Assembly: GCA_016195125.1 (NCBI GenBank)
Contig: JACQAD010000277.1
Location: 1 to 33,932, forward strand
DNA from: Magnetospirillum sp.
GTDB lineage: Bacteria > Pseudomonadota > Alphaproteobacteria > Rhodospirillales > Magnetospirillaceae
Reading direction: 5' to 3'
Length of the DNA: 33,932 bases
A model generated the notes under the pieces. The model had not been told where the DNA came from, made no database searches, and saw nothing but the letters and a program-made list of their open reading frames with translations. Below are positions 6,001 through 24,100 of the stretch, one piece after another. The position numbers and the translations under genes are program-made. Position 1 is the stretch's first letter; the number at the start of each line of letters is the position of its first letter.

Positions 6001-9000
6001 ACGACGTCAATTCCGGCGCCAGCGCCTATTTTGCCTCCAGCCTGGGGGCGTGGACCAACGGCAATCTGACCGTGTCGATCAGCGGCGCCAGCGCCGATAC
6101 GGCCCATGACCAGTTGAGCATCGGCGCCATCGGGCTGATCACTACCTCGGGCGCCACTGCCGGTTCGACAGTGTCCTATAACGGCCACCAGATCGGTACC
6201 ATCGCCACCGGGGCGGCCGGCACCCCCGGCCAGATGCTGACCATCAAGCTCTCCGGCCAGTACGCCACCAACGCGGCGGTGCAGGCCCTGGTCAACGCCA
6301 TCCAGTTCAGCGACAGCGGCACCACCAACAGCCTCGGCAACCGTACCGTCACCTTCACAGCCACCGATGCCTACGGCAAGAGCGCCTCGGTCACCGATAC
6401 GGTCACGGTGGTGGGGGTTCCGGCCATCAGCGGTGCCAGCTACGATCCCTTTACCGGCATCCTGACGATCACCGGCACCAACTTCACCACGGTGGCCGGT
6501 AATTACACCCTGGCCAACCTGACCCTGTCGGGCGAGGGCAGCAGCACCTACAGCCTGGGCAATGGTGACGCCGTCACCGGCACGCCCACCGCCACCAGCG
6601 TTCAGATCCAGATCGCCAGTGCCAACCAATCGGCGGTGGATGCCCTGTTCGACAAGAGCGGCACCACGGCGCTGGTCTCCACCACTCACAATTTCAACGT
6701 CGCCGCCTTGGCCGGCTGGGACGCCAACGGCTCGGTCTCGGCCTTCGCCCAGGCGACCAACACGGTAAGCGTGGCCAGCACCGGCACGCCGACGCTGACC
6801 AACAACAGCCCCACCATCGCGTCCGGCACCACCATCGGCAGCACGGCGCAATTCATCGACACCAGCACCATCACCGTCACCGACGCTCCCGACCTGTCGG
6901 GCAGCGGCATGTGGGCGGGCGGCAACCTGACGGTGGCGTTCGGCGCCACCAACCGCGACACCGCCCACGACATGCTGAGCGTCGGGACCGGCGGCGGCAT
7001 CACCGTTTCCGGCAGTAATGTCTCCTATAACGGCACCGTGATCGGGACACTGCAGACCGGGGCCACTGGTGCCCCCAACCAGAACCTGACCATCAAGTTC
7101 AGCGGGGCGGCCGTCAATGACGCCGCAATCGCCGCGCTGGTCAACGCCATTCAGTTCAGTGACACCGCGACCACCACCGCCGGCACCCGCAAGCTGACCT
7201 TCACTCTGACCGACGCCTACGGGCGCAGCAGCTCCGGTCTGGCCGAGAAGGTCTATGTGACGCCGGACACGCCGCCTGCTTACGTCAACGGCAACGGCAC
7301 CCAGACCGTCAATACCGGCCGCGACACGGCGGTGACCATTTCCTCCGCCACCCTGTCGGTCAGCGATACCGATGCCAATCAGAACGAGACCTGGTCGGCC
7401 AGCGTCGCGCCCTCGCACGGCACGCTGTCCTTCTCCATGACCAATGCCGGTTCGGGCAGCACCAGCATCGCCGGGCCGGTAGTCACCTATACGCCGGCTG
7501 GCGGCTATGTGGGCAGCGATACCTTCACCATCCAGGTCAGCGACGGCCAGGGCGGCGTGGTCGCCAAGATGTTCAACGTCAACGTCATCGCCCCGGTGAT
7601 CCAGAGCATCGTGCGGGTCGGATCGGCCGCGCCGACCAAGGCGACCACCGATTCCTTCACCGTCACCTTCAACGAGACGATCAGCGGTCTCTCCGCCGCC
7701 AATTTCAGCCTGGGCACCACCGGTTCGGTGACCGGCACCATCGGCACGCCCACCAGCAGCGATGGCGGCAAGACCTGGAGTGTGGCGGTGACCGGCGTCA
7801 GCGGCACCGGCACCCTGGGCCTCAACCTGCTCAGCAATCTGACGTCCATCACCGACAGCTACAGCCTGTCGCCCAGCAGCGGCTATACCGATACCGCCAG
7901 CCTTTACACCATCGACAACACCGCGCCGGTGGTCACCGGCGTCACCTTGAATGCCGCCGCCTACAAGGTCGGCGATACGGTGACCGCCACCATCACCACC
8001 GATGCCTATGACGGCAACGGCGCCTATGCCTTAAGCGCCGGCACTATCGACGGCGCGACCTTGGCGGGGTGGACCTACAACACCGGCACCCATTCGGGCA
8101 CCGCCACCTTCACCGTGACCACGGCGCTGACCGACGTGCTGAGCGGCTTGGTGCCGCTCAGTGTCCAGGTGGCCGACGTGGCGGGCAATGTAAGCACCGC
8201 CTATACGACCGGCGTGGCCGGAACGATCATCGACAGCCATGCCCCGAGCGCGGTCGCTTTGTCCAACACAGTGGCGCCGCTGGCGGCCAATGGCGTGGTC
8301 GGAACTCTGACCTCCACCGATGCCAGCACGGGGGCGGAAAGCTTCACCTATGCCATCACCGGCGGAGCGGACGCGGCGAAGTTCCAGGTGGTCGGCAACA
8401 CCCTGCAGGTGGCCAACGCCACCACGCTGGTCGGCAATACCAGCTACACCGTCACCGTGCGGTCCACCGATCTTGGCGGCAACAGCGTCACCCAGACGCT
8501 GACCCTGACCGGCGCCAGGGGGCCGACCGCCTCGGCCGGCGGCACACTGACCTACAACGAGCGGTCGGCGGCGGCGGTGATCGATACGGGCGTCACTCTG
8601 GTCAACGCCACCGGGGCGGCCAATATGACCGGCGCCACAATCTCCATTTCATCAGGCTTCGTGGCCGGCGACGTGCTGGCCTTCACCAGCCAGAACAACA
8701 TCACCGGCAGCTATAATTCCGGCACCGGCGTGCTCATCCTCTCCGGCGCCGATTCCTTCGCCAACTATCAGGCGGCGCTGCGCTCGGTGACCTTCGCGGC
8801 GCCCTCGCTCTACGAGACGGCGACCACGCCCCGCACAATCACCTGGGCGGGGACCGACACCAACGGCACCGGCGGCACCGCCACCAGCACGGTGAGCGTG
8901 GTCTATGTCAATGCGTCGCCGACCCTGTCGCTGACCGGCACCGCCAATGCCAGCATCAACACGGCGGCAGGGGCCAGCGGCGGCACGGCCCTGTTCACCG

Positions 9001-12000
9001 GCGCCAATGCCTCGACCCTGGAAGCGGGCCAGAGCATTACCGGGCTCACCCTGGCGGTGAGCGGCCTGGCGGATGTGGGGGCCGAGCAGTTGCGCATCGG
9101 CGGCACCTGGGTCTCCCTGACCTCGGGGGCCAGCGGCACGGCCGGCGGCATCGCCTACACGGTCGGAACCATCACCGGCGGCGCCACCACGGTAACGCTG
9201 AGCAAGAGCGATACGGCCGCCAACTGGAACACCACCATCACCGGCCTGTCTTACAAGGATACCGCCGCCGGCTCATCCTCGGTGGGGGCGCGCAGCTTCA
9301 CCCTGACCAAGATCTCGGATAGCGGCGGCACCGGCGCGGGCGGCAGCCCCGACACCACGCTGAGCAATCAGGCCATTGTCACCCTGTCGGCCAACGACAC
9401 CCCGGTGATCACGGTTCCGGGCGGCCAGACCATCAACAATGCCGGGGCCAACGCCATCACCGGTGTCAGCGTCTCGGACACCATCGTTGGGGGGGCGGTG
9501 ACCGCCACGGTAAGCGCCGGTCACGGCACGCTGGGCTTCACCGGCGCCGGGATCACCGGCAACAATTCGGCGTCGGTGACCATTTCGGCGGCCAGCGTCA
9601 GCGCGCTCAACACCATCCTGGGGACGCTCAATTACACCACCAGCCTGACCACCTCGGGAGCCGATTCCATCACCGTGTCGGTCAACGATAATGGCGGCAG
9701 CTATATCGGCGGCGCCAAGAGCGCGTCCGGCACCATCGCGGTCAGCGTCACCAACGGCACCCCAGTGGTGAACGCGCCGTCCAGCGTCACCGATACCCTG
9801 AGCGGCCAGTATGCCGTCACCGGCATCAGTGTGGCCGAGGCCTTGTCGGGTCCGTCCATGACCGCCACGCTGAGCGACAGCCGCGGCAATCTGCATGTCA
9901 CCGCCGGTGGCGCCACGGTCGGCGGCAACGACAGCGCCAGCGTCACCATCACCGGCACCCTGGCACAGCTGAACACGGCGCTGGCCAGCCTTAAATACAC
10001 CACCACCCTGACCGATACCGGCGCCGACGTCATTTCCATCAGCGTCAACGACAATGGCAAGAACGCCAGCGGCGCGGTCAACGTCACGGTGACCGGAAAT
10101 GACACCCCGGTGCTGGCGTTGGCCACCACCCAGAGCTTCCATGACACCAATTACCATGGCCTCACCGGAGTGGCGGTGACCGACACGCTGGGCGGTGCCA
10201 GCGTCACCGCCACCCTGGCGGCTACCAGCGGCAATCTGCGGGTGACGGCGGGCAGCGGCGTCACAGTCACCGGCAACGGCACCGGCAATGTGAGTATCTC
10301 CGGCTCGCAAGGTTCGGTGAACGCGGCGCTGGGGACGCTGCAATACGCCACGACGGCCACCAGTACCGCCAACGACACCATCACGGTGAGTTACAACGAC
10401 AATGGTGGCAATCTGGTGGGTGGGGCCAAGAGCGCGTCCGGCACCATCGCGGTCAGCCTGATCGGCAACCAGCCGGCAACCATCACCACTCCGGCGTCGC
10501 AGAGCTATACCGACGCGGTGCAGCACGCCATTTCCGGCCTGGCCCTGGCCGATACCTACAGCAATTCCAGCGTCACCGCGACGGTCAGCGACCTGCACGG
10601 TAATCTGAACTTTACCGCCAGCGGCAGCGCCAGCATCGGCGGCAACGACAGCGGCAGCGTCACCATCACCGGCAGCCTTGCGGATGTCAGCAGCACGCTG
10701 AACAGCCTCAAATACACCACCACGGCGACAGGGACGACCAGCGACACCATCAGCCTGTCGATCAATGACAACGGCGCCACCGCCAACCTGATCGGCGGCG
10801 ACAAGACGGCATCCACCAGCATTGCCGTCTCGCTGACCGGGAACGACATTCCGGTGGTGACGGCGCCGGCGTTGCAGAGCTTCACCGATACGAACCAGCA
10901 CGCCATTTCCGGCGCTGCGGTGGCCGATACCCTGTCGGCCGCCTCGGTAACCGCCACGGTGGCGGCGCAATCGGGTAACCTCAACTTCACTGCCAGCGGC
11001 GCGGCCGGTATTGGCAGCAACAACAGCGGCAGCGTCACCATCACCGGCACCCTGGCCGACGTCAACGCCACGCTCGCCAGCCTGAAATACACCACCACCG
11101 CCACCGGCACCGCCGGCGACACCGTGACGGTTTCGGTCAATGACAACAACACCAACGGCATCGGCGGCGCCAAGACCGGAAGCAACAGCTTCCAGATCAA
11201 CCTGACCGGCAACGACGCGCCGGTGGTCACGGTCCCCGGCACCCAGGATATCTCTGACCTCACCGCTCATGCCCTGTCCGGCATCAGCCTCAGCGACACC
11301 TATAGCGGTGCCACGGTCACCGCCACCGTTTCAGCAAGCGTGGGGACGCTGACCGGGACCGGCTTCACGGGAAGCGGCACCGGGTCGATGACCATCACCG
11401 GCACCCAGGCCAATGTGAATGCCGCGTTGGCCACCGTGCAATACACGGCCGCCGATGATGGTTCGGGTGGCGCTTCCGCCGACGTGGTCACCGTCCAGGT
11501 CAACGACAACAACACGAGCGGAGTGGGCGGCGCCAAGACCACCAGCCGCACGGTGGCGATCACCCTGATCAATAACGACACGCCGTCCATTGCGGTACCG
11601 GCCCAGCAGACCATCAACGATACGACGACCCATGCCATTTCCGGCATTTCGGTGACCGACAGCCTGGACGGCACCAGCTACGTCGCCACCGTGTCCGACA
11701 CGGCGGGCATCCTCACCATGACCACCGGCAGCGGCGGGGCCACCATCAGCGGCTCGGGCAGCACCAGCGTCACCGCTTCGGGCAGTACGCTGGCGGATGT
11801 GAATTCGGCCCTTGCCACCCTGACCTATGCCACCACCGCCACCAGCACCGGCGGCGAGACCATTACGGTCTCCATCAATGACAACGGCAGCACCAAGGCC
11901 CGCATCACCGGCGACAAGACCGGCACCACCACCCTGGATGTGGCGCTGATCGGCAATGACACGCCGGTCCTGACCATGCCGGCCACTCAGACGGTCACCA

Positions 12001-14459
12001 CCAGCGCTGCCAATGCCATTTCCGGTATCGCGGTGGCCGATACCTACAGCGGCAGCAGCCTGACTGCCACGGTGAGCGCCAGTCACGGAACACTGTCGTT
12101 CACCGGCAGCGGCGTCACCGGCAACAATTCCGCCTCGGTGAGCATTTCGGCAGCCAGCGTCAGCGCGCTCAACACCATCCTGGGGACGCTCAATTACACC
12201 ACCAGCCTGACCGCCAGCGGCAGCGATTCCATCACGGTCACCGTGGATGATGGCGGCGGCAGCCGAATCGGCGGCGCCAAGACGGCGACCTCCTCGGTCG
12301 CGGTCAATGTCGTCGGCAACGACACGCCCGTCGTCAATGTCGCCACCGAACAGACCATCAGCGACACCAACGCCCATGCCCTTTCCGGCGTCGGGCTTAC
12401 CGATGGGGCCAGCGGTACCACCGTCACCGCCACGGTGACCGCCCAGCACGGCAACCTCACTTTCACCGGCGGCGGCGTCACCGGCAACGGCACCGGCAAC
12501 GTCACCATCAGCGGCACGGCCTCGGCGGTGAACACTATCCTGGGGACGCTGCAATACACCACGACAGCGACCGCCACCGGGTCGGACACCGTCTCGGTCA
12601 CCATCAACGACGGAGCGACCTCCCTGGTCGGCGGCGCCAAGAGCGCCACCAATACCTTCCAGATCGACCTGATCGGCAATGACACCCCGACGCTGTCGCT
12701 GGCCTCGGCACAGGGCTTAAGCGACACCAACGCCCATGCTCTGTCCGGCATCGGGGTCACGGATGGCTACAGCGGTGGCACCGTCACCGCCACCTTGCAG
12801 GACACCACCGGGCATCTGCACGTCACCACCGCCGCCGGCCTGACGGTGACTGCCAACGATACCAACAGCGTTTCCCTGTCCGGCACGCTGTCGGCGATCA
12901 ATACCGCGCTGGGGACGGTGACCTACAGCGCCACCACCTCGGGCAACGACAACATCACCATCTCCGTCGACGACGGTGGCAGCACGCTGATCGGCGGACA
13001 CAAGACCACCAGCGGCACGGTGGTGGTCAACGTGGCCGGCAATGACGCCCCGACCATCACCGTGCCGACGACGCAGACCATCAATGATACCGCCCAGCAT
13101 GCCATCGGCGGCGTCGTGGTCTCCGACACCTATCACAACACCACGGTGACGACGACGGTGAGCGCCCTTTACGGCAACCTCAACGTCACCAATGGCGGCG
13201 GCGCGGCGGTGGTCACCAACAACGACACCGGCACGGTGACCATCAACGGCTCATTCGCCGATGTGAACATCGCGCTGAGCACCATCAAGTACACCACCAC
13301 CCGCGCTACAGCGGGTAGTGACGATATCTCCATCGCCTTCAACGATAACGGCACCACCGCCAATCTGCTGGGCGGCAGCAAGAGCAGCACCGCCTATGTA
13401 TTCGTGGCAGCCACCAAGCCGCCGACCGGGCCGGCCACCTCCGGGGCACCATCAGTTCCGCTGGGGGGTTCGGGTGGAATACCCGGCTCGACCGTGACCA
13501 TCCGCGACGGCGGAACCACGGTAGGGACCGCGACGGTCGACAACAATGGCAACTGGACCTTCACGGCACCCGCCGGGGAGGGCAGTCACAGCTACACGTC
13601 TCAGGAGACCGATCCGCACGGCAAGGTCGGGCCGCAATCCATCCCCCTGACCACCGTCGTGTCGCTGCCGAAGCCTCCGCCGCCACCCCCGCCGCCACCG
13701 CCGGCACCGGTGGTCGAGGCTCCCAAACCACCCCCGCCCCCAACCGAGGCCCCGGTTCTGGTTACGTCCATCCGGGCGGCGGTCAGTGATGCAGGTGCCT
13801 TCAATCAAGGCAGCCAAGGTGGTGGTGACGCGGTTGCTGCCAAGGTTGCCGCCCTGACAACCGGTGGCGGCTTCCAGGTGGTGGTTTCCACCGCCGCCGT
13901 GAATGCGGTGCGCGACGGCGCCCTGTTCGTCGCCAAGGGCATTCCCACCATTGATGCCACCAGCAATGCCATCAGCTTTGCGGTGCCGGCCGACGCCTTC
14001 GGCCATACCAATGCGGATGCCGGCATCCAATTGGCCGCGAAAATGACCGATGGTCGACCCCTGCCTCCTTGGGTGTCGTTCGATCCGACCAAGGGAACTT
14101 TCGTCGGCGAAGCCCCTGAAGGGTTCAAGGGAACCCTGTCGGTGGTGGTGGTGGCGCGTGACAGTTCCGGGCATGAAGTGGCAACCACCTTCCGCATCCG
14201 TGTGGGAGGGGGAGCGGCACAGGATGCCGCGCCGACCAAACCCCAGGCTCAAGGTGAAGCCGGCGAACGGCCTTCGACCGGCGCTCCCCGGCAAGGCGAT
14301 TCTGGCCCGGCACTTGACGGCAAGCCGGCCAAGCTGGGGCAGCGTCACGGTGACAAGCAGGTCGGTAAGGTTGCCTTCACCCAACAACTGAAACTGGCCA
14401 GCCGTAATGCGGCCTTTGCCCGCCATGCCACTCTGGCGGCCCGCGCGGTGAGGTCATGA
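1..14459 (+). CDS. Giant repeat-containing surface/adhesin-like protein with DUF4347-like N-terminal domain (5' partial; frame open to the window edge)
   Basis: Single open frame of >4800 codons; frame also open upstream of the GTG at 39 (AADPSLDGGKTEVVFVDTSIADYQHL). N-terminus 'VVFVDTSIADYQHLV...ISLLSHGSEGTVRAGSFVID...LLLYGCNVAEGADGQQFVNDLAAVTGRTVAASSHVVGSDGTW' is DUF4347-like; remainder is Thr/Ser/Gly/Ala-rich beta-strand repeats. Confidence 0.93.
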   Translation, partial: AADPSLDGGKTEVVFVDTSIADYQHLVAAVKTGIEVELIDGNQDGLVQMAAWAGSHSGYDSISLLSHGSEGTVRAGSFVIDDYNISVPEIRARLAQVGAALKPGGDLLLYGCNVAEGADGQQFVNDLAAVTGRTVAASSHVVGSDGTWTLDDTTGTVTATLFKDSGFKGDLADSQYVLNEGTVVAGAILQDTYNGAPFSDEDVSGLPTGYTFGYINSANHQFYALSSGVFVNRGAVIALQTSTTCYNGYHEFTVHISAANTGTVSVDIVYGIIMTGGFTPTLSNPTIAANGLKTSTSVVIDGSSSSTDAGATITVYDNGSSIGTTTADSSGNWSYTANLAAGSHPITAKATETGYNASGLSNTANIIVDTGPTFTNANSVTVNNSSPFALTATVTDPASASITYSVSTAAGHGTAGINSSSGVISYTPTGGYLGYDTFVIRAVDGYNVASTQTITVLNDNPPTLTTTSSSPMYIVGNAPVVVDSGITLNDADTPSSIAAFGGGSLRAHLSNSDTANDSLSVVAQTLANSHVIAVTGNTITDNGTTIGTFTGGSNGTDLVVTFASGVTSTQATDIARAIEFSGGNTSSTALRTITFTASDGLGVSANGSDTARALLGPTILSATYDPATGNLVLNGGDFTTSTGDYTLSGLTLSGEGSGTYTLGNGDAITGTPTSTSVTIHIASANQASVDALFDRNGTTALTNGHAFNINAALNWDQHGTTHAPAVATNGVTVTSSGTPTLGNANSPAPGLASTDTTTVLTLESGSVLVADAPDLSGAGMWNGGTLSVAMAATNRDSAHDQLSIAASGGITVFGSVVSYNGNAFATLQGTATGTSLQFTLSGAAANDAAIAALAKAIRYQETGTTTGGDRTINFTVTDAYGRSSAPLAAVAHVYTPPAITGVAYDANTGLLSITGTNLTLNPTDFTLSKLTITGEGSGSYTLNNADSINSTSTTQLVIQIDPANQPTLDAILDKQGTTAAINTTHTFNLALAAGWDANVIVTEAVSATNTVTVSSSATPTLTTTGATTIYDTNVGSNPGTVITTSVTATDMALVTAWNTGNLTASVAAASGGVYDSNADQLTIAVTGGITTSGATAGSTVSYNGTVIGTIKSGATGIPGQNLTITLNASATSTAIGALVNAIQFSDSTATSTGNRAVSFRVTDAYGATSAALSNTVSVVPAPAITSTGAIAGGWSPLAALPSGTALGDEFFRVVPGQNGALYAAYNDAGNLGHVYKYANGAWTQLGATFSFQITDLEVAPTGAADAGTPYVMSAVGVNPTVYVDKYNATTSTWANALIGTSSFSPLSVVGNSCTITNFAIDTSSKLYFGGTYVSGSSWSVVAYEYSAYRSGYYILSSSAGFLWGLQSWAVMGKGDGLITYYGAIGQVAQQAAVNMGGYPTSYFYGTARVNSDAGSIPNLNMPDQDPSVTLSGGGSNYSGIASANGQYVFYASNYGSAGETSTVTDEGTGTSISGPPVASGGIPVGITVTPSGTLYAAVAYNSSSESIQIYRYTGSSWVAYGTAVSLAANTWSDLISDTNGNISLATVGSGSGSAPYTAQVYHYAAPGVFYDPYTANLTITGTNFTTNTTNTADYTLSKMTISGEGGVSAYTLGNGDAITSLSSTQIVIHIASANQASVDALLDAKGANAAVTTGNYFNLSAAQGWDTSGGIIAPAETINTINVTSTGTPTLTNSNPIAPVEVYNAPTPKVVDSSTITVTDQPDFSGNGVWASGSLTASITAGQDTSHDELLVGNVGAITNSGGTISYNGNLIGTVDGTANGTPSHALTINFAHNSYITDAAIQALVNAIQFTDTGTTTTGDRTISIVATDAYSRATTAVTDTVHVVTGPTISGATYDPYTGILTIQGGAFVGGTANVTLSSLGITGEAAGGTFTLSGANATVTNVTSSAVTIQISPATQQTLNAILDRNGLSAVTSGTFNLNAGVAWDSFGGVNAPAAATNVISVTSSGTPSFTHTLTTTTDTNFQSSLDTVDSSTVTVNDVNSGASAYFASSLGAWTNGNLTVSISGASADTAHDQLSIGAIGLITTSGATAGSTVSYNGHQIGTIATGAAGTPGQMLTIKLSGQYATNAAVQALVNAIQFSDSGTTNSLGNRTVTFTATDAYGKSASVTDTVTVVGVPAISGASYDPFTGILTITGTNFTTVAGNYTLANLTLSGEGSSTYSLGNGDAVTGTPTATSVQIQIASANQSAVDALFDKSGTTALVSTTHNFNVAALAGWDANGSVSAFAQATNTVSVASTGTPTLTNNSPTIASGTTIGSTAQFIDTSTITVTDAPDLSGSGMWAGGNLTVAFGATNRDTAHDMLSVGTGGGITVSGSNVSYNGTVIGTLQTGATGAPNQNLTIKFSGAAVNDAAIAALVNAIQFSDTATTTAGTRKLTFTLTDAYGRSSSGLAEKVYVTPDTPPAYVNGNGTQTVNTGRDTAVTISSATLSVSDTDANQNETWSASVAPSHGTLSFSMTNAGSGSTSIAGPVVTYTPAGGYVGSDTFTIQVSDGQGGVVAKMFNVNVIAPVIQSIVRVGSAAPTKATTDSFTVTFNETISGLSAANFSLGTTGSVTGTIGTPTSSDGGKTWSVAVTGVSGTGTLGLNLLSNLTSITDSYSLSPSSGYTDTASLYTIDNTAPVVTGVTLNAAAYKVGDTVTATITTDAYDGNGAYALSAGTIDGATLAGWTYNTGTHSGTATFTVTTALTDVLSGLVPLSVQVADVAGNVSTAYTTGVAGTIIDSHAPSAVALSNTVAPLAANGVVGTLTSTDASTGAESFTYAITGGADAAKFQVVGNTLQVANATTLVGNTSYTVTVRSTDLGGNSVTQTLTLTGARGPTASAGGTLTYNERSAAAVIDTGVTLVNATGAANMTGATISISSGFVAGDVLAFTSQNNITGSYNSGTGVLILSGADSFANYQAALRSVTFAAPSLYETATTPRTITWAGTDTNGTGGTATSTVSVVYVNASPTLSLTGTANASINTAAGASGGTALFTGANASTLEAGQSITGLTLAVSGLADVGAEQLRIGGTWVSLTSGASGTAGGIAYTVGTITGGATTVTLSKSDTAANWNTTITGLSYKDTAAGSSSVGARSFTLTKISDSGGTGAGGSPDTTLSNQAIVTLSANDTPVITVPGGQTINNAGANAITGVSVSDTIVGGAVTATVSAGHGTLGFTGAGITGNNSASVTISAASVSALNTILGTLNYTTSLTTSGADSITVSVNDNGGSYIGGAKSASGTIAVSVTNGTPVVNAPSSVTDTLSGQYAVTGISVAEALSGPSMTATLSDSRGNLHVTAGGATVGGNDSASVTITGTLAQLNTALASLKYTTTLTDTGADVISISVNDNGKNASGAVNVTVTGNDTPVLALATTQSFHDTNYHGLTGVAVTDTLGGASVTATLAATSGNLRVTAGSGVTVTGNGTGNVSISGSQGSVNAALGTLQYATTATSTANDTITVSYNDNGGNLVGGAKSASGTIAVSLIGNQPATITTPASQSYTDAVQHAISGLALADTYSNSSVTATVSDLHGNLNFTASGSASIGGNDSGSVTITGSLADVSSTLNSLKYTTTATGTTSDTISLSINDNGATANLIGGDKTASTSIAVSLTGNDIPVVTAPALQSFTDTNQHAISGAAVADTLSAASVTATVAAQSGNLNFTASGAAGIGSNNSGSVTITGTLADVNATLASLKYTTTATGTAGDTVTVSVNDNNTNGIGGAKTGSNSFQINLTGNDAPVVTVPGTQDISDLTAHALSGISLSDTYSGATVTATVSASVGTLTGTGFTGSGTGSMTITGTQANVNAALATVQYTAADDGSGGASADVVTVQVNDNNTSGVGGAKTTSRTVAITLINNDTPSIAVPAQQTINDTTTHAISGISVTDSLDGTSYVATVSDTAGILTMTTGSGGATISGSGSTSVTASGSTLADVNSALATLTYATTATSTGGETITVSINDNGSTKARITGDKTGTTTLDVALIGNDTPVLTMPATQTVTTSAANAISGIAVADTYSGSSLTATVSASHGTLSFTGSGVTGNNSASVSISAASVSALNTILGTLNYTTSLTASGSDSITVTVDDGGGSRIGGAKTATSSVAVNVVGNDTPVVNVATEQTISDTNAHALSGVGLTDGASGTTVTATVTAQHGNLTFTGGGVTGNGTGNVTISGTASAVNTILGTLQYTTTATATGSDTVSVTINDGATSLVGGAKSATNTFQIDLIGNDTPTLSLASAQGLSDTNAHALSGIGVTDGYSGGTVTATLQDTTGHLHVTTAAGLTVTANDTNSVSLSGTLSAINTALGTVTYSATTSGNDNITISVDDGGSTLIGGHKTTSGTVVVNVAGNDAPTITVPTTQTINDTAQHAIGGVVVSDTYHNTTVTTTVSALYGNLNVTNGGGAAVVTNNDTGTVTINGSFADVNIALSTIKYTTTRATAGSDDISIAFNDNGTTANLLGGSKSSTAYVFVAATKPPTGPATSGAPSVPLGGSGGIPGSTVTIRDGGTTVGTATVDNNGNWTFTAPAGEGSHSYTSQETDPHGKVGPQSIPLTTVVSLPKPPPPPPPPPPAPVVEAPKPPPPPTEAPVLVTSIRAAVSDAGAFNQGSQGGGDAVAAKVAALTTGGGFQVVVSTAAVNAVRDGALFVAKGIPTIDATSNAISFAVPADAFGHTNADAGIQLAAKMTDGRPLPPWVSFDPTKGTFVGEAPEGFKGTLSVVVVARDSSGHEVATTFRIRVGGGAAQDAAPTKPQAQGEAGERPSTGAPRQGDSGPALDGKPAKLGQRHGDKQVGKVAFTQQLKLASRNAAFARHATLAARAVRS
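841..1113 (+). other. Bacterial Ig-like domain near the N-terminus of the giant protein
   Basis: 'GATITVYDNGSSIGTTTADSSGNWSYTANLAAGSHPITAKATETGYN' has the typical bacterial Ig-like 'G.TV.VYDNG..IGTT.AD..GNWSYT...L..G.H' pattern. Confidence 0.65.
1387..7260 (+). repeat. Tandem long repeat family (~280 aa / ~845 bp per A+B unit; leading half-unit plus 5 full units, one interrupted)
   Basis: Recurring A module '[P]TI/AISGA.YDP.TG.L.ITG.NFTT...YTLS.L.ITGEGS..YTLGNGDAIT......IQIASANQ..VDALFDK.GT' and B module 'T.VTDAPDLSG.GMW..G.LTV......D.AHDQLSI...GGIT..G..VSYNG..IGT...G..G....L.I....A.N.AAI.ALVNAIQFSDT.TTT.G.R...F..TDAYGR'. A modules begin near 1850, 2691, 3546 (interrupted), 5545 and 6417. 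Confidence 0.85.
3558..4703 (+). other. Propeller-like domain inserted into a repeat unit of the giant protein
   Basis: Repeat pattern stops after 'PAIT' and resumes with 'VFYDPYTANLTITGTNFTT'. The intervening ~380 aa has blade-like repeats: 'GALYAAYNDAGNLGHVYKYANGAWTQLG', 'TPYVMSAVGVNPTVYVDKYNATTSTWANA', 'KLYFGGTYVSGSSWSVVAYEYS', 'TLYAAVAYNSSSESIQIYRYTGSSWVAYG'. Confidence 0.6.
9393..13413 (+). repeat. Second tandem repeat family: 11 units of ~120 aa (~365 bp)
   Basis: Units start with 'N(D/G)(T/A/I)P...(V/A)P..Q(T/S)..D...HAI(S/T)G(I/V)...D......VTATVS...G.L..T......GN.(S/T)..V(T/S)I.G....(V/L)N..L.(T/S)L.YTTT.T..G.DTI.VS.NDNG....GG.K....' and end in '(L/V).GND'. I count 11 N(D/G/Q)-P starts from nt 9393 to 13041. 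Confidence 0.85.
13666..13758 (+). other. Poly-proline linker in the giant protein
   Basis: Translation LPKPPPPPPPPPPAPVVEAPKPPPPPTEAP between the repeat array and the C-terminal domain. Confidence 0.9.
13920..14211 (+). other. Dystroglycan-type cadherin-like (CADG / putative Ig) C-terminal domain
   Basis: 'LAAKMTDGRPLPPWVSFDPTKGTFVGEAPEGFKGTLSVVVVARDSSGHEVATTFRIRVGGG' matches the typical 'A...dG.pLP.Wl.Fd..tg.f.G.pp.......l.v.a.D..G......F.l.v' signature. Confidence 0.7.
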
Positions 14460-14537: not shown

Positions 14538-16190
14538 ATGACTATCGGAACAGCATCCCGCCGCATGGCCCATCTTTTGGCCGCCGTTTCCACCATGGCC
14601 CTGCTGACGGCCTGCGCGGTGACGCCGACGCCTTACAGCCAGGATGAGTTCATGGCTCGAGCCAAGGCCGACCGCGCCGCCATGTTCGACGGGCAAGAGG
14701 TTCTGTCGAAGCCGCTGACCTTGCCCGAGGCGGTGGCCCGGGTGCTGAAATACAATCTGGACAAGCGGGCCAAGATGATGGACGAGGCGCTGGCCTTGGG
14801 CCAGCTTGACCTTGACCGCTTCGATCTTCTGCCAAAGCTCACCGCCAATGCCGGCTATACCGAGCGCTCATCGCCCAACGCCACAAGGTCGCGCGACCTC
14901 TATACCCAGACCACCAGCACCTCCAATCCCAGCTATTCGGCGGATCGCTTCTCCATCACCAGCGATCTGGGACTGACCTGGAATATCCTCGATTTCGGCG
15001 TCAGCTATTTCTCCGCCCAGCAGAATGCCGACCGCGCCCTGATCGCTTCGGAACGCCGCCGCAAGACGGTGGCCAATCTGGTCCAGGAGGTGCGCTTCAC
15101 CTTCTGGCGGGCCGCCGCCGCCCAAGTGCTGAAGAGTAAGGTCACCGATATTATCACCACCGCCGAGAAGGCCCTGGCCGATTCCGAGCGGGTCGAGAAT
15201 GAACGTCTGCGCAATCCGACCGAGTCGCTGCGGGTCCAGAAGACTTTGCTGGAAAGCATCCGTCAGCTGGAGGCCATCGATCAGGAACTCACTACCGCCA
15301 AGGCCGAACTGGCGGCATTGATCAACGTGCCGCCCGGCAGTGATTTCCAGCTCGATATCCCCGAGAACGGCGGCATGACCGTTCCGGAATGGTCGCTGCC
15401 CATCGAGCAGATGGAAGAGGCGGCCCTGATCAACAATCCCGACCTGCGCGAGCAGGATTATCAGAGCCGTATCGCCGTCGATGATACCCGCAAGGAAATC
15501 CTGAAGCTGCTGCCGGGCATCACCTTCAGTCTGTCACGGCAATATGATCAGAACTCGTTCCTGATGGATAATCGCTGGAATGAGGTGGGGACCAAGATCA
15601 CCTGGAACCTTCTCAATCTTCTGTCGGGGCCGGATCGTATCAAGCATGCGGATACCGCCGAGGATGTCGCCACGGCCAAGCGCGTCGCCCTTAGGATGGC
15701 GGTGCTGGCCCAGGTCCATGTGATCTCGCACCAATTCCTGAGTGCCGCAAAGCAGTACGAGCGGGCCGACAAGCTGTGGAAGATCGAGCAACGTCTGGCG
15801 GAGGCGTCCGGCAACCAGAGCCGGGGCGGCACCCAGAACGAGATCGAGCGGGTCAGCACCGAGACTTCGGCCATCGCCGCCGAGCTGCGCCGCTTCCAGA
15901 CTTACGCCCAGATGCAGTCGTCCTACGGCAAGCTGCAATCGACCATCGGCGCTGACACGATCCCCGAGCGCCTTGCCACCCACACGCTTGACGGTGTGTC
16001 CGGGGCTATTGCCGTGAACTTCGGCGGTAAGACGCCGTCGCCCGATCCGGTTCCCACGGCGGTTCCCGCCGGGAAAGAGACGGTCGCGCCCGTGGCGGCG
16101 CTTGAACCGGGACGCCAGGACGTGGTGCGTGATGGCCTGGTCTGGCTGGGCGGCAAGATCGCCAGTCTGGCCGATCAGGTCGGCAAATAA
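14538..16190 (+). CDS. TolC-family outer membrane efflux/secretion protein (lipoprotein-like signal)
   Basis: N-terminal signal with lipobox-like 'LLTAC'; TolC-like architecture ('LTLPEAVARVLKYNLDKRAKMMDEALALGQLDLDRFDLLPKLTANAGYTER', long helices, internal duplication with 'LLPGITFSLSRQYD'). Confidence 0.85.
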   Translation: MTIGTASRRMAHLLAAVSTMALLTACAVTPTPYSQDEFMARAKADRAAMFDGQEVLSKPLTLPEAVARVLKYNLDKRAKMMDEALALGQLDLDRFDLLPKLTANAGYTERSSPNATRSRDLYTQTTSTSNPSYSADRFSITSDLGLTWNILDFGVSYFSAQQNADRALIASERRRKTVANLVQEVRFTFWRAAAAQVLKSKVTDIITTAEKALADSERVENERLRNPTESLRVQKTLLESIRQLEAIDQELTTAKAELAALINVPPGSDFQLDIPENGGMTVPEWSLPIEQMEEAALINNPDLREQDYQSRIAVDDTRKEILKLLPGITFSLSRQYDQNSFLMDNRWNEVGTKITWNLLNLLSGPDRIKHADTAEDVATAKRVALRMAVLAQVHVISHQFLSAAKQYERADKLWKIEQRLAEASGNQSRGGTQNEIERVSTETSAIAAELRRFQTYAQMQSSYGKLQSTIGADTIPERLATHTLDGVSGAIAVNFGGKTPSPDPVPTAVPAGKETVAPVAALEPGRQDVVRDGLVWLGGKIASLADQVGK

Positions 16191-16915
16191 TGTCAATCCG
16201 CCTGGGATGGGCGGTCCCGGCCCTGTGCCTGTTGCCCTTCGGGGTGGCGGCACAGGAGCCGGTGATTCCGGTGCAATTGGTGGCGGTCAACTTCACCACC
16301 CTATCGTCGGAACTGCCGGCCAAGATCGACCGGATCACGGTGAAGGAAGGTGATCGCTTCAAGGAGGGCCAGCCGCTGGTGGTGTTCGACTGCACCATCC
16401 AGCGGGCGCAACTGGACGAGGCCAATGCGGTTCTGGCGGCGGCCGAGAAGTCCAAATCCGTCCATAAGCGCCTGCTGGAGCTGAATTCCACCGGCAGCCT
16501 GGAGGCGGAAAAATCGGTCTCCGATGCCGCCGTGGCCCAGGCCAAGCTGAACTCGGCCCGCGCGGTGACCAGCAAATGCGCCATTACCGCTCCGTTCCCC
16601 GGTCGGGTGGTCGAGCAGAAGGCTCGCGCTCATCAATATATCCAGGCGGGCCAGCCGATCCTCGACATCCTCGACGATTCCGCCCTCGACGCCGAATTCA
16701 TCGTGCCGAGCAATTGGGGGCAGGGACTGAAGGTCGGCCAGACCATGCAGATCGCGGTGGACGAGGTCAGGAAGACCTATCCGGCCAAGCTCGGCCGCAA
16801 GGGGGCCAAGGTCGATGCGGTCAGTCATTCGGTCAAGATGATTGCCGAGATCCGGGGGGATTATCCTGAGTTGATGGCCGGGATGACCGGCCGGGTGCTG
16901 ATGTCTCCGCCATGA
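16190..16915 (+). CDS. HlyD/MacA/RND-type periplasmic adaptor subunit
   Basis: Signal peptide followed by 'PAKIDRITVKEGDRFKEGQPLVVFDCTIQRAQLDEANAVLAAAEK...APFPGRVVEQKARAHQYIQAGQPILDILDDSALDAEFIVPS', a biotinyl-lipoyl/barrel-sandwich adaptor. Start overlaps the TolC stop. Confidence 0.88.
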   Translation: MSIRLGWAVPALCLLPFGVAAQEPVIPVQLVAVNFTTLSSELPAKIDRITVKEGDRFKEGQPLVVFDCTIQRAQLDEANAVLAAAEKSKSVHKRLLELNSTGSLEAEKSVSDAAVAQAKLNSARAVTSKCAITAPFPGRVVEQKARAHQYIQAGQPILDILDDSALDAEFIVPSNWGQGLKVGQTMQIAVDEVRKTYPAKLGRKGAKVDAVSHSVKMIAEIRGDYPELMAGMTGRVLMSPP

Positions 16916-18204
16916 GTGATAATCCGCTGGTCGCCCTGCTGGGGCTGGAGGAACATGCCCGCCAGGCCGCCACCGTGGATGAACTGGGCTTCGTCATGGT
17001 CAACGACACCCGCTCGCTGGTGGAGTACCGCCAGGCGGCGCTGGTGATCGACGACCGGCTGAAGGCGGTATCGGGCGTGGCCGCGGTGGAAAAGGGCGCC
17101 CCCTTCACCCTGTGGCTGGAGCGGATGGTGCAGCGTCTGGCCATCGACCGGCCGCGTGCCGCCGGTCCCGACGATCTGCACGGTCCCGATGCCGACGAAT
17201 GGTCGGAATGGCTGCCGCCCCATGTTCTGCTGTTGCCGCTGGCAGATAAGGGCACCCTGCTGCTGGCCCGTGATGGAGAGTGGCAGGAGGGCGAGGTCGC
17301 GCTCCTCGCCCATGCCTCGGGCGCCTTCGCCCATGCCTGGGCCTTCCTCCACAAGCCGTCACCGGTGACGGAATTGCGTGCCCGCCTGACCGCTATCCCG
17401 AAATGGCGGCTGAAACTCGCTGCCGGTATCGTTCTGATCCTGCTGTTTCCCGTACGGCTGTCGGTGCTGGCGCCATCCGAGGTGGTGGCCCATGATCCGG
17501 CGGTGATCCGCTCGCCCATGGAAGGCGTTGTCGAAAAGGTGCGGGTTACGCCCAATCAGGCGGTGGCGGAAGGCGATCTGCTGTTCGAACTGGACCGCAC
17601 CACGCTTTCCGGCAAGCTGGAAGTGGCGAAGAAAGCCCTGTCCACCGCCCAGGCCGAATTCGATCAGGCCACCCAGCAATCCTTTTTCGATCCCAAGGCC
17701 AAGGCGTCGGTGGCCATCGTCAAATCCCGTATCGACGAGCGCCAGGCCGAGGCGACGCAGTTGGAAGACCTGCTCGACCGCTCTCAGGTCAAGGCACCGC
17801 GCGCCGGAATCGCCGTGCTGGATGATCCCGCCGAATGGCAGGGCCGTCCGGTGAATGTGGGCGAGAAGGTGATGGCGGTGGCCGCCTCCGACGATGTGGA
17901 GGTGGAGGCCTGGCTGGCCCCCGCCGATGTCATCGCCCTGGAACCCGGCAATCCGGTGGTCGTATTCCTCAATTCCGATCCGCTGTCGCCGGTCACCGCC
18001 CGGCTGCTCTACGTCGCCTACGAGGCGATCCCCCAGCCCGATGGCACGCTGGGCCATCGGGTGCGGGCCAGACTGGACAAGGGGAGCACGCCGCCCCGGC
18101 TGGGCCTCAAAGGCACCGCCCGGCTCGACGGCCATCGGGTGGCCTTGATCTATTGGCTGGCGCGGCGGCCCTTGGGGGTGATTCGCACCTATCTGGGTCT
18201 GTGA
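16912..18204 (+). CDS. HlyD-family membrane fusion protein with N-terminal GAF-like cytoplasmic region
   Basis: ~150 aa soluble N-terminus ('VNDTRSLVEYRQAALVID...KGAPFTLWLERMVQ' resembles GAF-domain HlyD proteins), one TM ('LKLAAGIVLILLFPVRLSVLAPSEV'), then 'VIRSPMEGVVEKVRVTPNQAVAEGDLLFELDRTTL...VKAPRAGIAVLDDPAEWQGRPVNVGEKVMAVA'. ATGA overlap with the previous gene. Confidence 0.85.
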   Translation: MSDNPLVALLGLEEHARQAATVDELGFVMVNDTRSLVEYRQAALVIDDRLKAVSGVAAVEKGAPFTLWLERMVQRLAIDRPRAAGPDDLHGPDADEWSEWLPPHVLLLPLADKGTLLLARDGEWQEGEVALLAHASGAFAHAWAFLHKPSPVTELRARLTAIPKWRLKLAAGIVLILLFPVRLSVLAPSEVVAHDPAVIRSPMEGVVEKVRVTPNQAVAEGDLLFELDRTTLSGKLEVAKKALSTAQAEFDQATQQSFFDPKAKASVAIVKSRIDERQAEATQLEDLLDRSQVKAPRAGIAVLDDPAEWQGRPVNVGEKVMAVAASDDVEVEAWLAPADVIALEPGNPVVVFLNSDPLSPVTARLLYVAYEAIPQPDGTLGHRVRARLDKGSTPPRLGLKGTARLDGHRVALIYWLARRPLGVIRTYLGL

Positions 18205-18205
18205 C

Positions 18206-20305
18206 ATGGACGCCGTCGCCCTACCGCCGCTCCGCGACGAGCTTTCCCTGCATCAAGGCCCGGCCGGTCTCGACGGCGCTCCCACCTGGACCATCCGTGA
18301 TCCGGTGCGCAACAAGTATTTCCGTATCGGCTGGGCCGCCTTCGAGGCTCTATCCCGCTGGGGCGGCACGCCGGAGGCGGTGGCCGAGGCAGTCAATGCC
18401 GAGACCACCCTGGACCTCGAGCCAGAGGATGTGGTGGAGGTCGCTAAATTCCTCCTCGGCAACCAACTGACCCGGCCCGGTAATCACGGCGACACGCTAC
18501 GCATCGCCCAACAGGCGGCGGCCGAGCATCAATCCCTGTTCCACTGGCTGCTGCATCATTACCTGTTCTTCCGTATCCCGCTGGTGCGGCCGGACCGGCT
18601 TCTGACCGTCACCGCCCCCTGGGTGTGGTGGCTGGGCGGCGCCTGGTTCCGCTGGGCGAGCGTGGCGGCCCTGGTGCTGGGCTTGGGCCTGATCGCCCGT
18701 CAATGGGAGGTCTTCTCCGCCACCTTGGTGGACAATCTCAGCCTGTCGGGAATGCTGAGCTATGCCGTCGCCCTGTCGCTGGTCAAGGTCGTCCACGAAT
18801 TGGCTCATGCCTACACCGCCAAGCGGATGGGGTGCCGGGTGCCGACCATGGGGCTGGCCTTCCTGGTGATGTGGCCGGTGCTCTATACCGATGTCAACGA
18901 GACCTGGACCCTGGCATCGCGCCGCCAGCGGCTGCTGGTGGGCGGGGCGGGCATCCTGGCCGAACTGGCGGTGGCCGCCTGGGCGACCCTGCTCTGGGCC
19001 TTCCTGCCCGAGGGCGGGTTGCGCCAGGGCGTCTTCGTGCTGGCGACCCTGACTTGGGTCAGTTCGCTGGCCATCAACTTGTCGCCCTTCATGCGCTTCG
19101 ACGGCTATTTCCTGGCCATGGACGCGTTGGAGATGCCCAATCTCCACCCCCGTTCCTTCGCCATGGCGCGGTGGTGGCTGCGCGAAATTCTATTCGGCCT
19201 GGGCGAAGCGCCGCCCGAACCCATGGCGCCGAGGCGACGCCTCGCCATGGTGGTGTTCGCCTTCGCCGTCTGGATCTATCGGCTGACCTTGTTTCTCGGC
19301 ATCGCCGTGCTGGTCTACCACTTCTTCATCAAGGCGGTCGGCGTGCTGCTGTTCGCAGTCGAGATGGGCTGGTTCGTCTTCCTGCCGTTCTGGACCGAGT
19401 TCCGCGAATGGGCCAAGCGCAAGGATGACATCAGGGCCAGGACCAACTGGCGCCGCCCCGCCATGGGATTGGGGCTGGCCTTGCTGGTGGCGATCATCCC
19501 CTGGCGCACCCGGATCGAAGCGCCCGCCATGCTGTCGGCCGAGGTGATGACGCCGCTGTTCCTGCCCGGTCCGGCCCGGCTGGAGGCAGTGCTGGCGACA
19601 CGCGGCCAGCATGTGGAGAAGGGGGCCAAGCTGCTGGCCTTCATCTCTCCCGATATCGACCACCGCCGGGCTGGCACCGCCGCGCGTCTGGCCGGCAAGT
19701 CGGCCGAGCTGGAAGCGGTCAAGCTCGACCCCTTCGGCCGCGAGCGATTGTCGGCGCTCACCGAGGAGGTGTCGCGCCTCGCCGCCGAGCAGGCCGCCTT
19801 GGATGCCGAGGCCGAACGGCTGAACATCACCGCCCCCCAGGAGGGCAGCTTTCTCGACCCGCTGCCCGATCTGAAACCGGGCACCTGGCTGTCGCCGAAG
19901 AGCCAATTGGGCCTGATCCGCGCCGACGGCAAGGTCCAGGCCCTGGCCTATGTGGCCGAGGACGATCTTGCCCGCATCACCGAGGGCGACATGGCGTCCT
20001 TCGTGCCCCACGGCCTGGACTTTTCCCGATTATCCGGCACGGTGACCGCCATCGACCGCAACCCGGCCAAGATATTGACCGAACCCGCCCTGGCCTCGAC
20101 CCATGGTGGCGATATTCCGGTGCGGGTGGCGGGGCAGGCATTGGTGCCCCAGGGCGGATTCTACCGTGTCGTCATTACCCTCGACGGCGTCCAACCCGAC
20201 CTCAAGCTGGCTGGCCATGTCATGATCAACGGCCAGGGCCAGAGCACGGTGGGGCGGCTGGCCCGTTCCGTCCTGGTGGTGCTGGTCCGCGAATGGGGCG
20301 CCTGA
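18206..20305 (+). CDS. Multi-pass M50-family zinc metalloprotease with PqqD-like N-terminus and HlyD-like C-terminal region
   Basis: 'VVHELAHAYTAKRMGCRVPTMG' (HExxH in a TM segment), second M50 motif 'NLSPFMRFDGYFLAMD', multiple TMs, C-terminal 'EAVLATRGQHVEKGAKLLAFISPDIDHR...LNITAPQEGSFLDPLPDLKPGTWLSPKSQLGLI' barrel-sandwich. N-terminal ~85 aa 'WTIRDPVRNKYFRIGWAAFEALSRWGGTPEAVAEAVNAETTLDLEPEDVVEVAKFLLGNQL' is PqqD-like. Confidence 0.85.
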   Translation: MDAVALPPLRDELSLHQGPAGLDGAPTWTIRDPVRNKYFRIGWAAFEALSRWGGTPEAVAEAVNAETTLDLEPEDVVEVAKFLLGNQLTRPGNHGDTLRIAQQAAAEHQSLFHWLLHHYLFFRIPLVRPDRLLTVTAPWVWWLGGAWFRWASVAALVLGLGLIARQWEVFSATLVDNLSLSGMLSYAVALSLVKVVHELAHAYTAKRMGCRVPTMGLAFLVMWPVLYTDVNETWTLASRRQRLLVGGAGILAELAVAAWATLLWAFLPEGGLRQGVFVLATLTWVSSLAINLSPFMRFDGYFLAMDALEMPNLHPRSFAMARWWLREILFGLGEAPPEPMAPRRRLAMVVFAFAVWIYRLTLFLGIAVLVYHFFIKAVGVLLFAVEMGWFVFLPFWTEFREWAKRKDDIRARTNWRRPAMGLGLALLVAIIPWRTRIEAPAMLSAEVMTPLFLPGPARLEAVLATRGQHVEKGAKLLAFISPDIDHRRAGTAARLAGKSAELEAVKLDPFGRERLSALTEEVSRLAAEQAALDAEAERLNITAPQEGSFLDPLPDLKPGTWLSPKSQLGLIRADGKVQALAYVAEDDLARITEGDMASFVPHGLDFSRLSGTVTAIDRNPAKILTEPALASTHGGDIPVRVAGQALVPQGGFYRVVITLDGVQPDLKLAGHVMINGQGQSTVGRLARSVLVVLVREWGA

Positions 20306-20323
20306 TCCATGAAGGAGAACATC

Positions 20324-20611
20324 ATGAAACGATTGATCACTCTACTGGCGGCGTTGCTGCTCTGGACCGGGGCGGCCCTGGCCCAATCCGGCCCCATCGA
20401 CAAGGCCTATGAGGACGGTAAGGCCGCCGAAATCTCTGCGGCTCGGCTTCGGTTGGCCACACGCCCAGCGGCAACCGGCGTGCAGGAGTTGAACGAGGCG
20501 GAAGGATTGTTGCGGCACCTGAAGGCCGCCGTGGACATTAAAGCCCGCCGTAAAATCGCCACCGAACTCGAACTGGCAGTGACCCGCCTCAATATCCTTG
20601 CGAATGAATGA
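20324..20611 (+). CDS. Small exported protein (~95 aa, cleavable signal peptide)
   Basis: ORF called from 20309, but AAGGAG at 20312-20317 precedes ATG 20324 with good spacing. 'MKRLITLLAALLLWTGAALAQ|SGPIDKAYEDGKAAEISAARLRLATRP...' has a signal peptide and a charged helical mature part. Confidence 0.65.
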   Translation: MKRLITLLAALLLWTGAALAQSGPIDKAYEDGKAAEISAARLRLATRPAATGVQELNEAEGLLRHLKAAVDIKARRKIATELELAVTRLNILANE

Positions 20612-20873: not shown

Positions 20874-21098
20874 TTGGATGGCGGCAGGAAGATCATGGGG
20901 TTCCGCGTGACCCCCGTTACCTTCCATGAAATTCGGCCGCAGGCCGCCCGGCAGTGGAGCGAGCGGCGGGGAGAGGGATTCGCGAAGGCCCTGTCCGGTC
21001 ACAAGTCGGCCGTAAAGGCACAGCAATCCGTACCAATGGAATTCGATGCCCCGATTTTCGGCAGTGCTCGTCTTCGCAACGTGCCTAGATCAAGCTGA
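20874..21098 (+). pseudogene. Possible degraded tyrosine recombinase/phage integrase C-terminal remnant
   Basis: 'VTPVTFHEIRPQAARQWSERRGEGFAKALSGHKSAVKAQQ' resembles the integrase 'TFHEIRSL.ARLY.....FAQ.LLGHKS..MT..Y' block (box II HxxR and GHKS), but the ORF is very short and the catalytic Tyr context is missing. Confidence 0.42.
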
Positions 21099-21840
21099 TG
21101 AGGGATCGAATCTGGCGCTCACGGATATCCTGTGCGATTTCGGTCTGCGTCACGCCACGTCCACCCCCGTAATTGGCGATCAGCACCCGGTGGACGCGGT
21201 GGAAGGAGCCGTAGCTGCTTTCCTCCCATTCCTCCACCCGAGGGCTGCCGTCGAAGGTGACGACACGGCGTGGCCTGGAGGCGTTGCGCCTGACGGCGAA
21301 GATGGCCTCGGTAATCACCACGTAGATGCTGTCACTGGTGAAATAGCCGGCCAGAATGCCAAGAGCTGCTCCCGACGCCATGCCAATTCCTCCGCCCACG
21401 CCCGTTCCGGTCGCTCCGCCGATGGCGCCCCCCGCCGCGCCACCGATCAGTCCGCCGCCGGCGGAGCCGAGGAAGCCAAACTGGGCCATCATGTCGCTGT
21501 CGAATTGCTGGCTGCGGACGACGTTGAGATCGACCTTGAGCCCGAAATCATTGCCGTCCGAGCGCTCGTAGCCCTTGCTTACGTATCCCTGGTAGAGCCG
21601 CTCGCGGGTGGCATCCAGATCCCAGACCTGATCACCCGACATGTTGCGCAGGGCCAGCTTCAGCCGCCGGTTGGGAAACAGGGAGGAATCGGTGAACACC
21701 GACGAATCCGAACGCATGCCGTACATGCGGTCAGTTTTGGGATCGACCACCATGTCTGCGCGATTACCGCGCTGGCAGGCGCCTAGGGCGACGGCCAGGC
21801 CGGTGGCCAGGAACAGGCGCCGATCGATGCTCATGCTCAT
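21085..21840 (-). CDS. TraT-like complement-resistance lipoprotein
   Basis: Lipobox-like 'ALGAC' near the N-terminus; 'VVDPKTDRMYGMRSDSSVFTDSSLFP', Gly-rich hydrophobic centre 'GSAGGGLIGGAAGGAIGGATGTGVGGGIG', C-terminal 'ANYGGGRGVTQTEIAQDIRERQIRSLISLI', a TraT-type layout. Confidence 0.6.
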   Translation of the reverse strand: MSMSIDRRLFLATGLAVALGACQRGNRADMVVDPKTDRMYGMRSDSSVFTDSSLFPNRRLKLALRNMSGDQVWDLDATRERLYQGYVSKGYERSDGNDFGLKVDLNVVRSQQFDSDMMAQFGFLGSAGGGLIGGAAGGAIGGATGTGVGGGIGMASGAALGILAGYFTSDSIYVVITEAIFAVRRNASRPRRVVTFDGSPRVEEWEESSYGSFHRVHRVLIANYGGGRGVTQTEIAQDIRERQIRSLISLI

Positions 21841-23426: not shown

Positions 23427-24059
23427 TCAAGTGTATGTGCAAACGCCGGAGATGGCCCCGATGGCGGTGGTCAGCATGAACCCGGCCTTGGTGGTGAAGG
23501 GCAATGGTGCCCAGGCGACGGCAATATGCGCATTTCCCAGTTTGCGGTGTGTCGCGACCCAAACGCCATTGCCGCAAAGCCCATTCCTCCCGGCGATAAT
23601 GGCGGCACCGTCCAGGGCTAGGGCGGCGGCGAGGCCATCCTGCCCCAGCTTGGCCACAGCCTCGCGCAGGGTCCAGAAGGCCAGGAAGGCGTCTTCGCCG
23701 TCCGCTGCCACGGCCCGGATTTCCTCGGGGGAGAAATAGGCCTCGGCCATGGCCGCATAGTTCCGGTGGCGGTGGGGAACTTCCAGGTCGATGCCGATCC
23801 GGCCGTTCTCGGCCAGTGCCGCCGCCGCCCAGTCGCCGGAATGGCTGAGCGAGATGTCGGGACAGGCCAAGCCATGGGCATTGGTGACGTGCGGCCGCGT
23901 CTGTCCTCCGCCGCCCAGATCCCATTGTCCCGGAGGCAGAAGGTTGCGGACCAGGGTGCGGGTGCGCAGGTCAATACTATCCGGATAGTTGTCTTTCCGG
24001 TCGTTTCCCGGTTTATTGGTCGGCGCAGCAACCGCCAGACGAGGCGGCCTCACGGTCAA
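23427..24059 (-). CDS. 4'-phosphopantetheinyl transferase (Sfp-type)
   Basis: 'ISLSHSGDWAAAALAENGRIGIDLEVPHRHRNY' and 'FLAFWTLREAVAKLGQDG' match the GIDxE and (F/W)xxREAxxK signatures. Confidence 0.85.
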   Translation of the reverse strand: MTVRPPRLAVAAPTNKPGNDRKDNYPDSIDLRTRTLVRNLLPPGQWDLGGGGQTRPHVTNAHGLACPDISLSHSGDWAAAALAENGRIGIDLEVPHRHRNYAAMAEAYFSPEEIRAVAADGEDAFLAFWTLREAVAKLGQDGLAAALALDGAAIIAGRNGLCGNGVWVATHRKLGNAHIAVAWAPLPFTTKAGFMLTTAIGAISGVCTYT

Positions 24060-24100
24060 GACATCTTCTCCGCGTCCCTGGAAAGGCGATATCTCTCATC

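Follow-up and report, generated by a model that had tools for sequence, protein, structure and literature searches.

RRE domains are the leader-peptide readers of RiPP synthesis, and LapA-type giant adhesins are retained via their N-terminus. In type I secretion, the C39 or C39-like domain of peptidase-containing ABC exporters reads the cargo (PMC8277102). Two RRE surveys leave fusions to M50 or HlyD domains unmentioned in their main text (PMC7470986, PMC12710340), and our literature searches for PqqD combined with M50 or HlyD returned nothing relevant. The LEPR-XLL domain (NCBIfam NF012209, LEPR-8K) has been described as an N-terminal feature of a ~8000-aa Vibrio protein with no function given, and our literature search found no function for it either.

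We analysed a 33,932-nt stretch of DNA from Magnetospirillum sp. (GCA_016195125.1, contig JACQAD010000277.1; hereafter the window), in which an RRE-type domain is joined to a membrane protease-adaptor that accompanies some of the largest proteins of bacteria. Judged from sequence, this domain is probably the tag-reading part of an unusual export machine for giant surface proteins. The features of the locus are as follows.

39..14459, + strand: giant DUF4347/cadherin-like protein, presumed cargo, 4806 aa seen (DUF4347 E 1.2e-41, Big_9, Cadherin)
14538..16190, + strand: outer-membrane channel, TolC/OEP family (Pfam OEP E 1.6e-26)
16190..16915, + strand: HlyD1, first periplasmic adaptor (Pfam HlyD_3 E 9.8e-17)
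16912..18204, + strand: HlyD2, second adaptor, with an N-terminal cytosolic GAF-type domain plus HlyD (Pfam HlyD_3 E 2.4e-16)
18206..20305, + strand: PqqD-M50-HlyD protein, 699 aa (ORF; Pfam M50 E 5.7e-9, HlyD_D23 E 1.7e-6; AlphaFold2)
18230..18481, + strand: its N-terminal PqqD/RRE domain, residues ~9-92 (hhalign with shuffle controls, AlphaFold2, Foldseek)
18545..19495, + strand: its M50 (site-2-protease-like) membrane domain, residues ~114-430 (Pfam PF02163; NCBIfam daptide_HExxH; model helices)
18794..18808, + strand: HExxH zinc motif, H197 E198 L A H201 (invariant in 79 homologues)
19076..19105, + strand: second M50 motif NLSPFMRFDG (N291, P294, D299 and G300 invariant in 79 homologues)
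19496..20302, + strand: its periplasmic adaptor (HlyD/MacA/EmrA-type) domain, residues ~431-699 (Foldseek against PDB)
20309..20611, + strand: small exported protein, 100 aa (no Pfam/NCBIfam family at meaningful score)

The PqqD-type domain and the protein that carries it

A preliminary description of this DNA had likened the first ~85 residues of the PqqD-M50-HlyD protein to a PqqD fold, and the N-terminal sequence that it quoted is present, in frame, as the opening of the 18206-20305 ORF. Pfam and NCBIfam scans of the window's domain alone gave no PqqD call, and residues 1-95 had no Pfam match. Among 79 homologous N-termini, four matched PF05402 weakly and below its curated cut-off (best E 0.017), and TIGR04353, TIGR03859, NF033530 and NF050069 each gave one to three sub-threshold matches, with a best E of 0.005 for the PqqD-type models. 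Profile-profile comparison was performed with hhalign, using the 79-sequence N-terminal alignment and a PqqD alignment built from PF05402 matches in related genomes. This gave a colinear match over 72 columns with a score of 36.5 (probability 89%); the top score of 300 column shuffles was 21.0 (probability 12%), and no window starting at residue 101 or later in this protein exceeded 11.8.

The AlphaFold2 model of the domain, made with the 79 sequences, had strands at residues 14-18, 27-32 and 37-41 followed by helices at 43-50, 56-66 and 73-85, a beta-beta-beta-alpha-alpha-alpha topology, with a block-mean pLDDT of 90-95 over residues 11-90. When the model was compared with 350,542 PDB chains by Foldseek, ranks 1-3 were 5v1u_B, 5v1v_A and 5v1u_A (probability 1.00, TM-score 0.68-0.73 by target). 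These are chains of TbiB1, a lasso-peptide RRE whose structure was solved with the TbiA leader peptide; ranks 5-6 were 5why and 5wgg, enzyme structures of sactipeptide biosynthesis. The Foldseek E-values, 7.5e-3 at best, were modest, in line with what a domain of ~85 residues can be expected to give. A search of PDB sequences with the PqqD-domain profile (hmmsearch) found no RRE, so support for the PqqD fold is structural and profile-profile. Within the first 110 residues, aligned for the window and 78 homologues, R10, G24, D32 and W52 were invariant and W28, P33, F82, L83 and L88 nearly so; residues Y/F38, F39 and I41 of strand 3 and V76, F82 and L83 of helix 3 were strongly conserved. Taken together, the predicted structure (pLDDT >90) and the profile match place the N-terminal domain in the PqqD/RRE fold family, as the preliminary description had supposed. 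It resembles known PqqD/RRE domains (TbiB1, the CteB RRE) in fold, in its top structural match and in its PqqD profile match, but differs in being too diverged for Pfam and NCBIfam cut-offs, in its fusion to M50 and HlyD parts, in the lack of RiPP-modifying enzymes nearby and in its presumed substrate, a giant protein rather than a small peptide. Two ordinary PqqD-family genes occur elsewhere in the genome (contigs C205 and C160) and are unrelated to the export cassette.

The remainder of the protein was assigned by Pfam to M50 (residues 186-276) and HlyD_D23 (residues 463-617), and the full-length model had a mean pLDDT of 91. Its best NCBIfam match was the daptide intramembrane metalloprotease (daptide_HExxH, NF041824; E 1.6e-44), which covered residues 34-387, and so the greater part of both the PqqD-like and the M50 region, at 152.6 bits, below the 300-bit equivalog cut-off. 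The M50 part, with its HExxH, also resembles YydH/LiaK (NF058609), again below the equivalog cut-off. In contrast to both families, the PqqD-M50-HlyD protein adds an HlyD extension and belongs to a giant-protein cassette with no daptide genes. Since HExxH and the downstream Asp motif lie in membrane helices of the model and are invariant among the 79 homologues, the M50 protease is predicted to be intact. The C-terminal part matched MacA (E 3.2e-12), EmrA and MexA in the PDB by Foldseek.

The cassette and its relatives

A scan of GTDB contigs recovered at least 339 relatives of the PqqD-M50-HlyD protein, from which 80 loci were kept and 78 aligned with the window. The listed loci came from Alpha-, Beta- and Gammaproteobacteria, Magnetococcales and Nitrospira; within the class of Magnetospirillum, 13 of 289 genomes encoded a homologue. 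Among the 78 loci listed, HlyD2 directly preceded the PqqD-M50-HlyD gene in 76, HlyD1 was present in 50 and a TolC-type channel in 47 within the flanks covered, and a giant protein adjoined in many. Giant, outer-membrane channel, adaptor, GAF-adaptor and PqqD-M50-adaptor thus form a conserved cassette of Proteobacteria and Nitrospirota, and no further family recurred as a member in the 78 loci. The GAF-type domain of HlyD2 (16912-17400) precedes the membrane anchor, and the N-termini of its homologues match GAF, one of them over the cut-off; it could regulate export via a cytosolic ligand.

The cassette resembles type I secretion (HlyB-HlyD-TolC) in placing a TolC-type channel and HlyD-type adaptors beside a giant adhesin-like protein. 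In contrast to type I secretion, it has no ABC transporter, its multi-span inner-membrane component is an M50 protease and the tag is an N-terminal LEPR leader. A scan for Walker-A and LSGGQ motifs found ABC ATPases in 9 of the 78 loci, scattered and none conserved in the cassette, which is not a classical type I system because this defining component is absent. A dedicated LssB-type ABC of type I secretion was over the cut-off in 7 of 20 genomes with the PqqD-M50-HlyD protein. All positive genomes tested carry some ABC exporters elsewhere in the genome, and an ATPase may act in trans. Secretion of a multi-repeat adhesin in Pectobacterium was considered as an experimental precedent and set aside as not demonstrably this cassette: its cluster is described with LapG and as a classical type I system.

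The small exported protein at 20309 was one of two partners that the preliminary description had named for the domain. Its relatives occurred in 3 of the 78 loci listed, all from Magnetospirillum-type relatives, and it was rejected as a conserved partner; its distribution suggests a lineage-specific protein that is probably no core part of the cassette. No family of RiPP precursor peptides or modifying enzymes recurred near the gene in the 78 loci, and the locus is not part of a RiPP cluster.

Beyond the cassette, a TraT-like lipoprotein and a Trypsin_2/HtrA-like exported protease lie side by side, divergent from the cassette (21085-23378, - strand). They are followed by an aryl-polyene-type cluster (23427-33128, mainly + strand) encoding a phosphopantetheinyl transferase, a ketoacyl synthase, an acyltransferase, an AMP-binding/ApeI-like protein, a glycosyltransferase-acyltransferase, a thioesterase, a LolA-like protein and an MMPL exporter. 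The MMPL reading frame is apparently split (30851-32464 / 32178-33128), which suggests that the sequence has an error or a frameshift at about 32.2 kb.

The N-terminal leader of the giant proteins

The N-termini of the giants have a common pattern, in which a short, often basic stretch is followed by LLALEPRxMFDxAAVxTA, an Ala/acid-rich linker and often DUF4347, so that the leader lies at the extreme N-terminus. At their C-termini, the giants have in common a Cadherin/Ig-like segment, and they end in a short run rich in alanine and arginine. The preliminary description had named the adhesin tail as its other candidate tag; this end is not favoured, because the tag that tracks the PqqD-M50-HlyD protein sits at the N-terminus.

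Base 1 of the window is also base 1 of the contig, which begins 12 codons upstream of DUF4347 in the window giant; any leader of this giant is therefore out of view. A second DUF4347 ORF on another contig of the same genome (C294, 4667-5509) runs off the contig end and has a complete LEPR leader; it carries MRKRRRNNLGLIALEPRWMFDGAAV (E 1.9e-14), and the leader peptide of this genome reads MRKRRRNNLGLIALEPRWMFDGAAVADAAHA. Right before DUF4347, its linker AADPAQDGGRKE resembles that of the window giant, AADPSLDGGKTE.

Compared with LEPR-XLL, the leaders gave borderline scores of 15-17.6 bits where matched (cut-off 17). Two of seven leader-bearing giants were above the cut-off, three just below and two without a match, the window giant being truncated N-terminally. 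The named motif has Leu where the leader consensus LEPRxMFDxAA mostly has Asp. NF012209 alone was discarded as a genome marker, being short and noisy, with matches in 178 of 289 genomes at E<=10; those over the cut-off that were read in negative genomes were chance-like, in short or internal frames.

In the class sample, all 10 genomes with the PqqD-M50-HlyD protein had the leader on DUF4347 proteins, and none of the 9 without the PqqD-M50-HlyD protein did. Split by family, and with two weak DUF4347 matches dropped, this was 8 versus 6 with no exception (p 0.0003). In an independent phylum sample of 299 genomes, the PqqD-M50-HlyD protein was found in 84 and DUF4347 in 83; 70 had both, 14 the protein only, 13 DUF4347 only and 202 neither (p 2.9e-40, with co-occurrence p-values overstating independence because genomes are phylogenetically non-independent). 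A leader HMM was trained on other loci, from GTDB, and its threshold set at the best of 1320 shuffles (5.9 bits). In positive genomes, 45 of 50 DUF4347 proteins exceeded all shuffles; in negative genomes 1 of 25 did, and it comes from a 57%-complete MAG whose congeners are positive. Among the five that fell short in positive genomes are the truncated window giant, a second DUF4347 copy that is internal and a protein with a Sec-signal-like N-terminus. Two DUF4347 proteins without leader (L252 of genome G364 and L261 of G454) have N-termini that read as Sec signal peptides, suggesting that the DUF4347 domain can leave the cell by other routes.

A blind search of 40 genomes was then made with the leader alignment. 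Of 11 genomes that have a close PqqD-M50-HlyD homologue and no DUF4347, 6 showed the leader. It turned up in none of the 23 genomes that lack the PqqD-M50-HlyD protein, although many of these are DUF4347-positive, and in none of the 6 with only a distant paralogue. Excluding G050, whose sequence was in the query, left 5 of 10 versus 0 of 23 (p 0.0011), and about half of the DUF4347-free positive genomes had no leader at the threshold used. These matches are N-terminal, in giants that have other domains. Together with the count of 1 in 25 in negative genomes, these non-DUF4347 giants led us to reject the idea that the leader simply belongs to the DUF4347 family. A complete same-strand cassette was present in five genomes with the leader on a non-DUF4347 giant, and the stretch that was read contained no ABC gene. 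The order in four of the five was giant, channel, HlyD1, HlyD2, PqqD-M50-HlyD, as it was in Pectobacterium aroidearum; in the fifth (G562), the giant lies between HlyD1 and HlyD2. Leader divergence correlated equally with the PqqD, M50 and HlyD parts in a mirror-tree comparison (r 0.72, 0.74 and 0.72), so co-variation does not pin the binding site to the PqqD domain.

A candidate role in export and its alternatives

From the computed fold, protease motifs, cassette and leader association we infer binding, cleavage, direction of export and topology, including a cytosolic placement of the PqqD domain. On balance we favour a reading in which the PqqD domain acts as the docking site for the N-terminal leader of the giants and the M50 part probably clips this leader during export via the cassette. 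The PqqD-type module would do its docking in the cytosol, attached to an M50 protease in the inner membrane whose chain runs on into a periplasmic adaptor. By analogy with RRE-leader complexes, the domain would most likely grip the leader as an added beta-strand and bring it to the M50 active site, where the cut would probably fall close to the FD-[GA]A segment; the three adaptor polypeptides, together with the channel, would form the conduit that passes the giant chain outward. The proposed role is similar to that of the C39 or C39-like domain in type I secretion. The earlier idea that the domain recognises a peptide tag carried by a substrate thus survives as the best reading of the sequences, though probably with neither of the two partners named for it.

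The leader at the extreme N-terminus would also suit a giant that exits C-terminus first by another route, with the PqqD domain holding the leader until an M50 cut frees the protein, by analogy a LapA/LapG logic moved to the inner membrane. LapA-type giants are indeed held by the N-terminus, and the GAF domain of HlyD2 could gate release. However, the cassette has no conserved ABC exporter, and the LssB-type ABC was over the cut-off in just the 7 of 20 positive genomes noted above; we regard this route as unlikely, and its recognition step, identical to that of docking and export, makes the two hard to separate by sequence. It is more doubtful still that the PqqD fold persists solely to help assembly, in contact with HlyD2 or M50, while HlyD2 or an ABC exporter in trans reads the leader. 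The equal mirror-tree correlations would fit this, as would HlyD2 linkage as tight as that of the PqqD protein (76 of 78 loci listed), but RRE folds of known function bind leader peptides, and strand 3 and helix 3 are strongly conserved.

A RiPP-like function, in which the PqqD and M50 parts mature a small peptide such as the 20309 product, could draw on PqqD as a RiPP hallmark and on the daptide protease as nearest relative of the M50 part. With the rarity of the 20309 protein, no conserved small peptide gene in any clade so far, no recurring RiPP-modifying enzyme and a score of about half the equivalog cut-off against it, we consider it very improbable. Hardly credible is a DNA-binding winged helix that recognises no peptide: winged helices and RREs have a common fold and are confused by software (PMC7470986), but the best PDB matches are RREs with leader rather than regulators, and the rest of the polypeptide is a membrane protease and exporter subunit.

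If the pairing of leader and domain by docking and export is true, the LEPR-XLL domain gains a function and cargo becomes predictable from sequence alone. Giant surface proteins would then have an export route with no dedicated ABC transporter in the cassette, and RRE-leader recognition would extend from natural-product synthesis to protein secretion. We tentatively suggest, at somewhat less than even confidence, a distinct Gram-negative class of giant-protein export without its own ABC ATPase, in which an RRE would read a cleavable N-terminal LEPR-type leader on the cargo, and an intramembrane protease belonging to the adaptor conduit would process it; it is possible that this class is categorically new. 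The prediction is directly testable, namely that the 85-residue domain binds the 30-residue leader peptide. Distant paralogues of the PqqD-M50-HlyD protein (~25-31% identical), found in six genomes with no LEPR leader (G296, G303, G346, G429, G436 and G561), may represent a sister system whose cargo differs.
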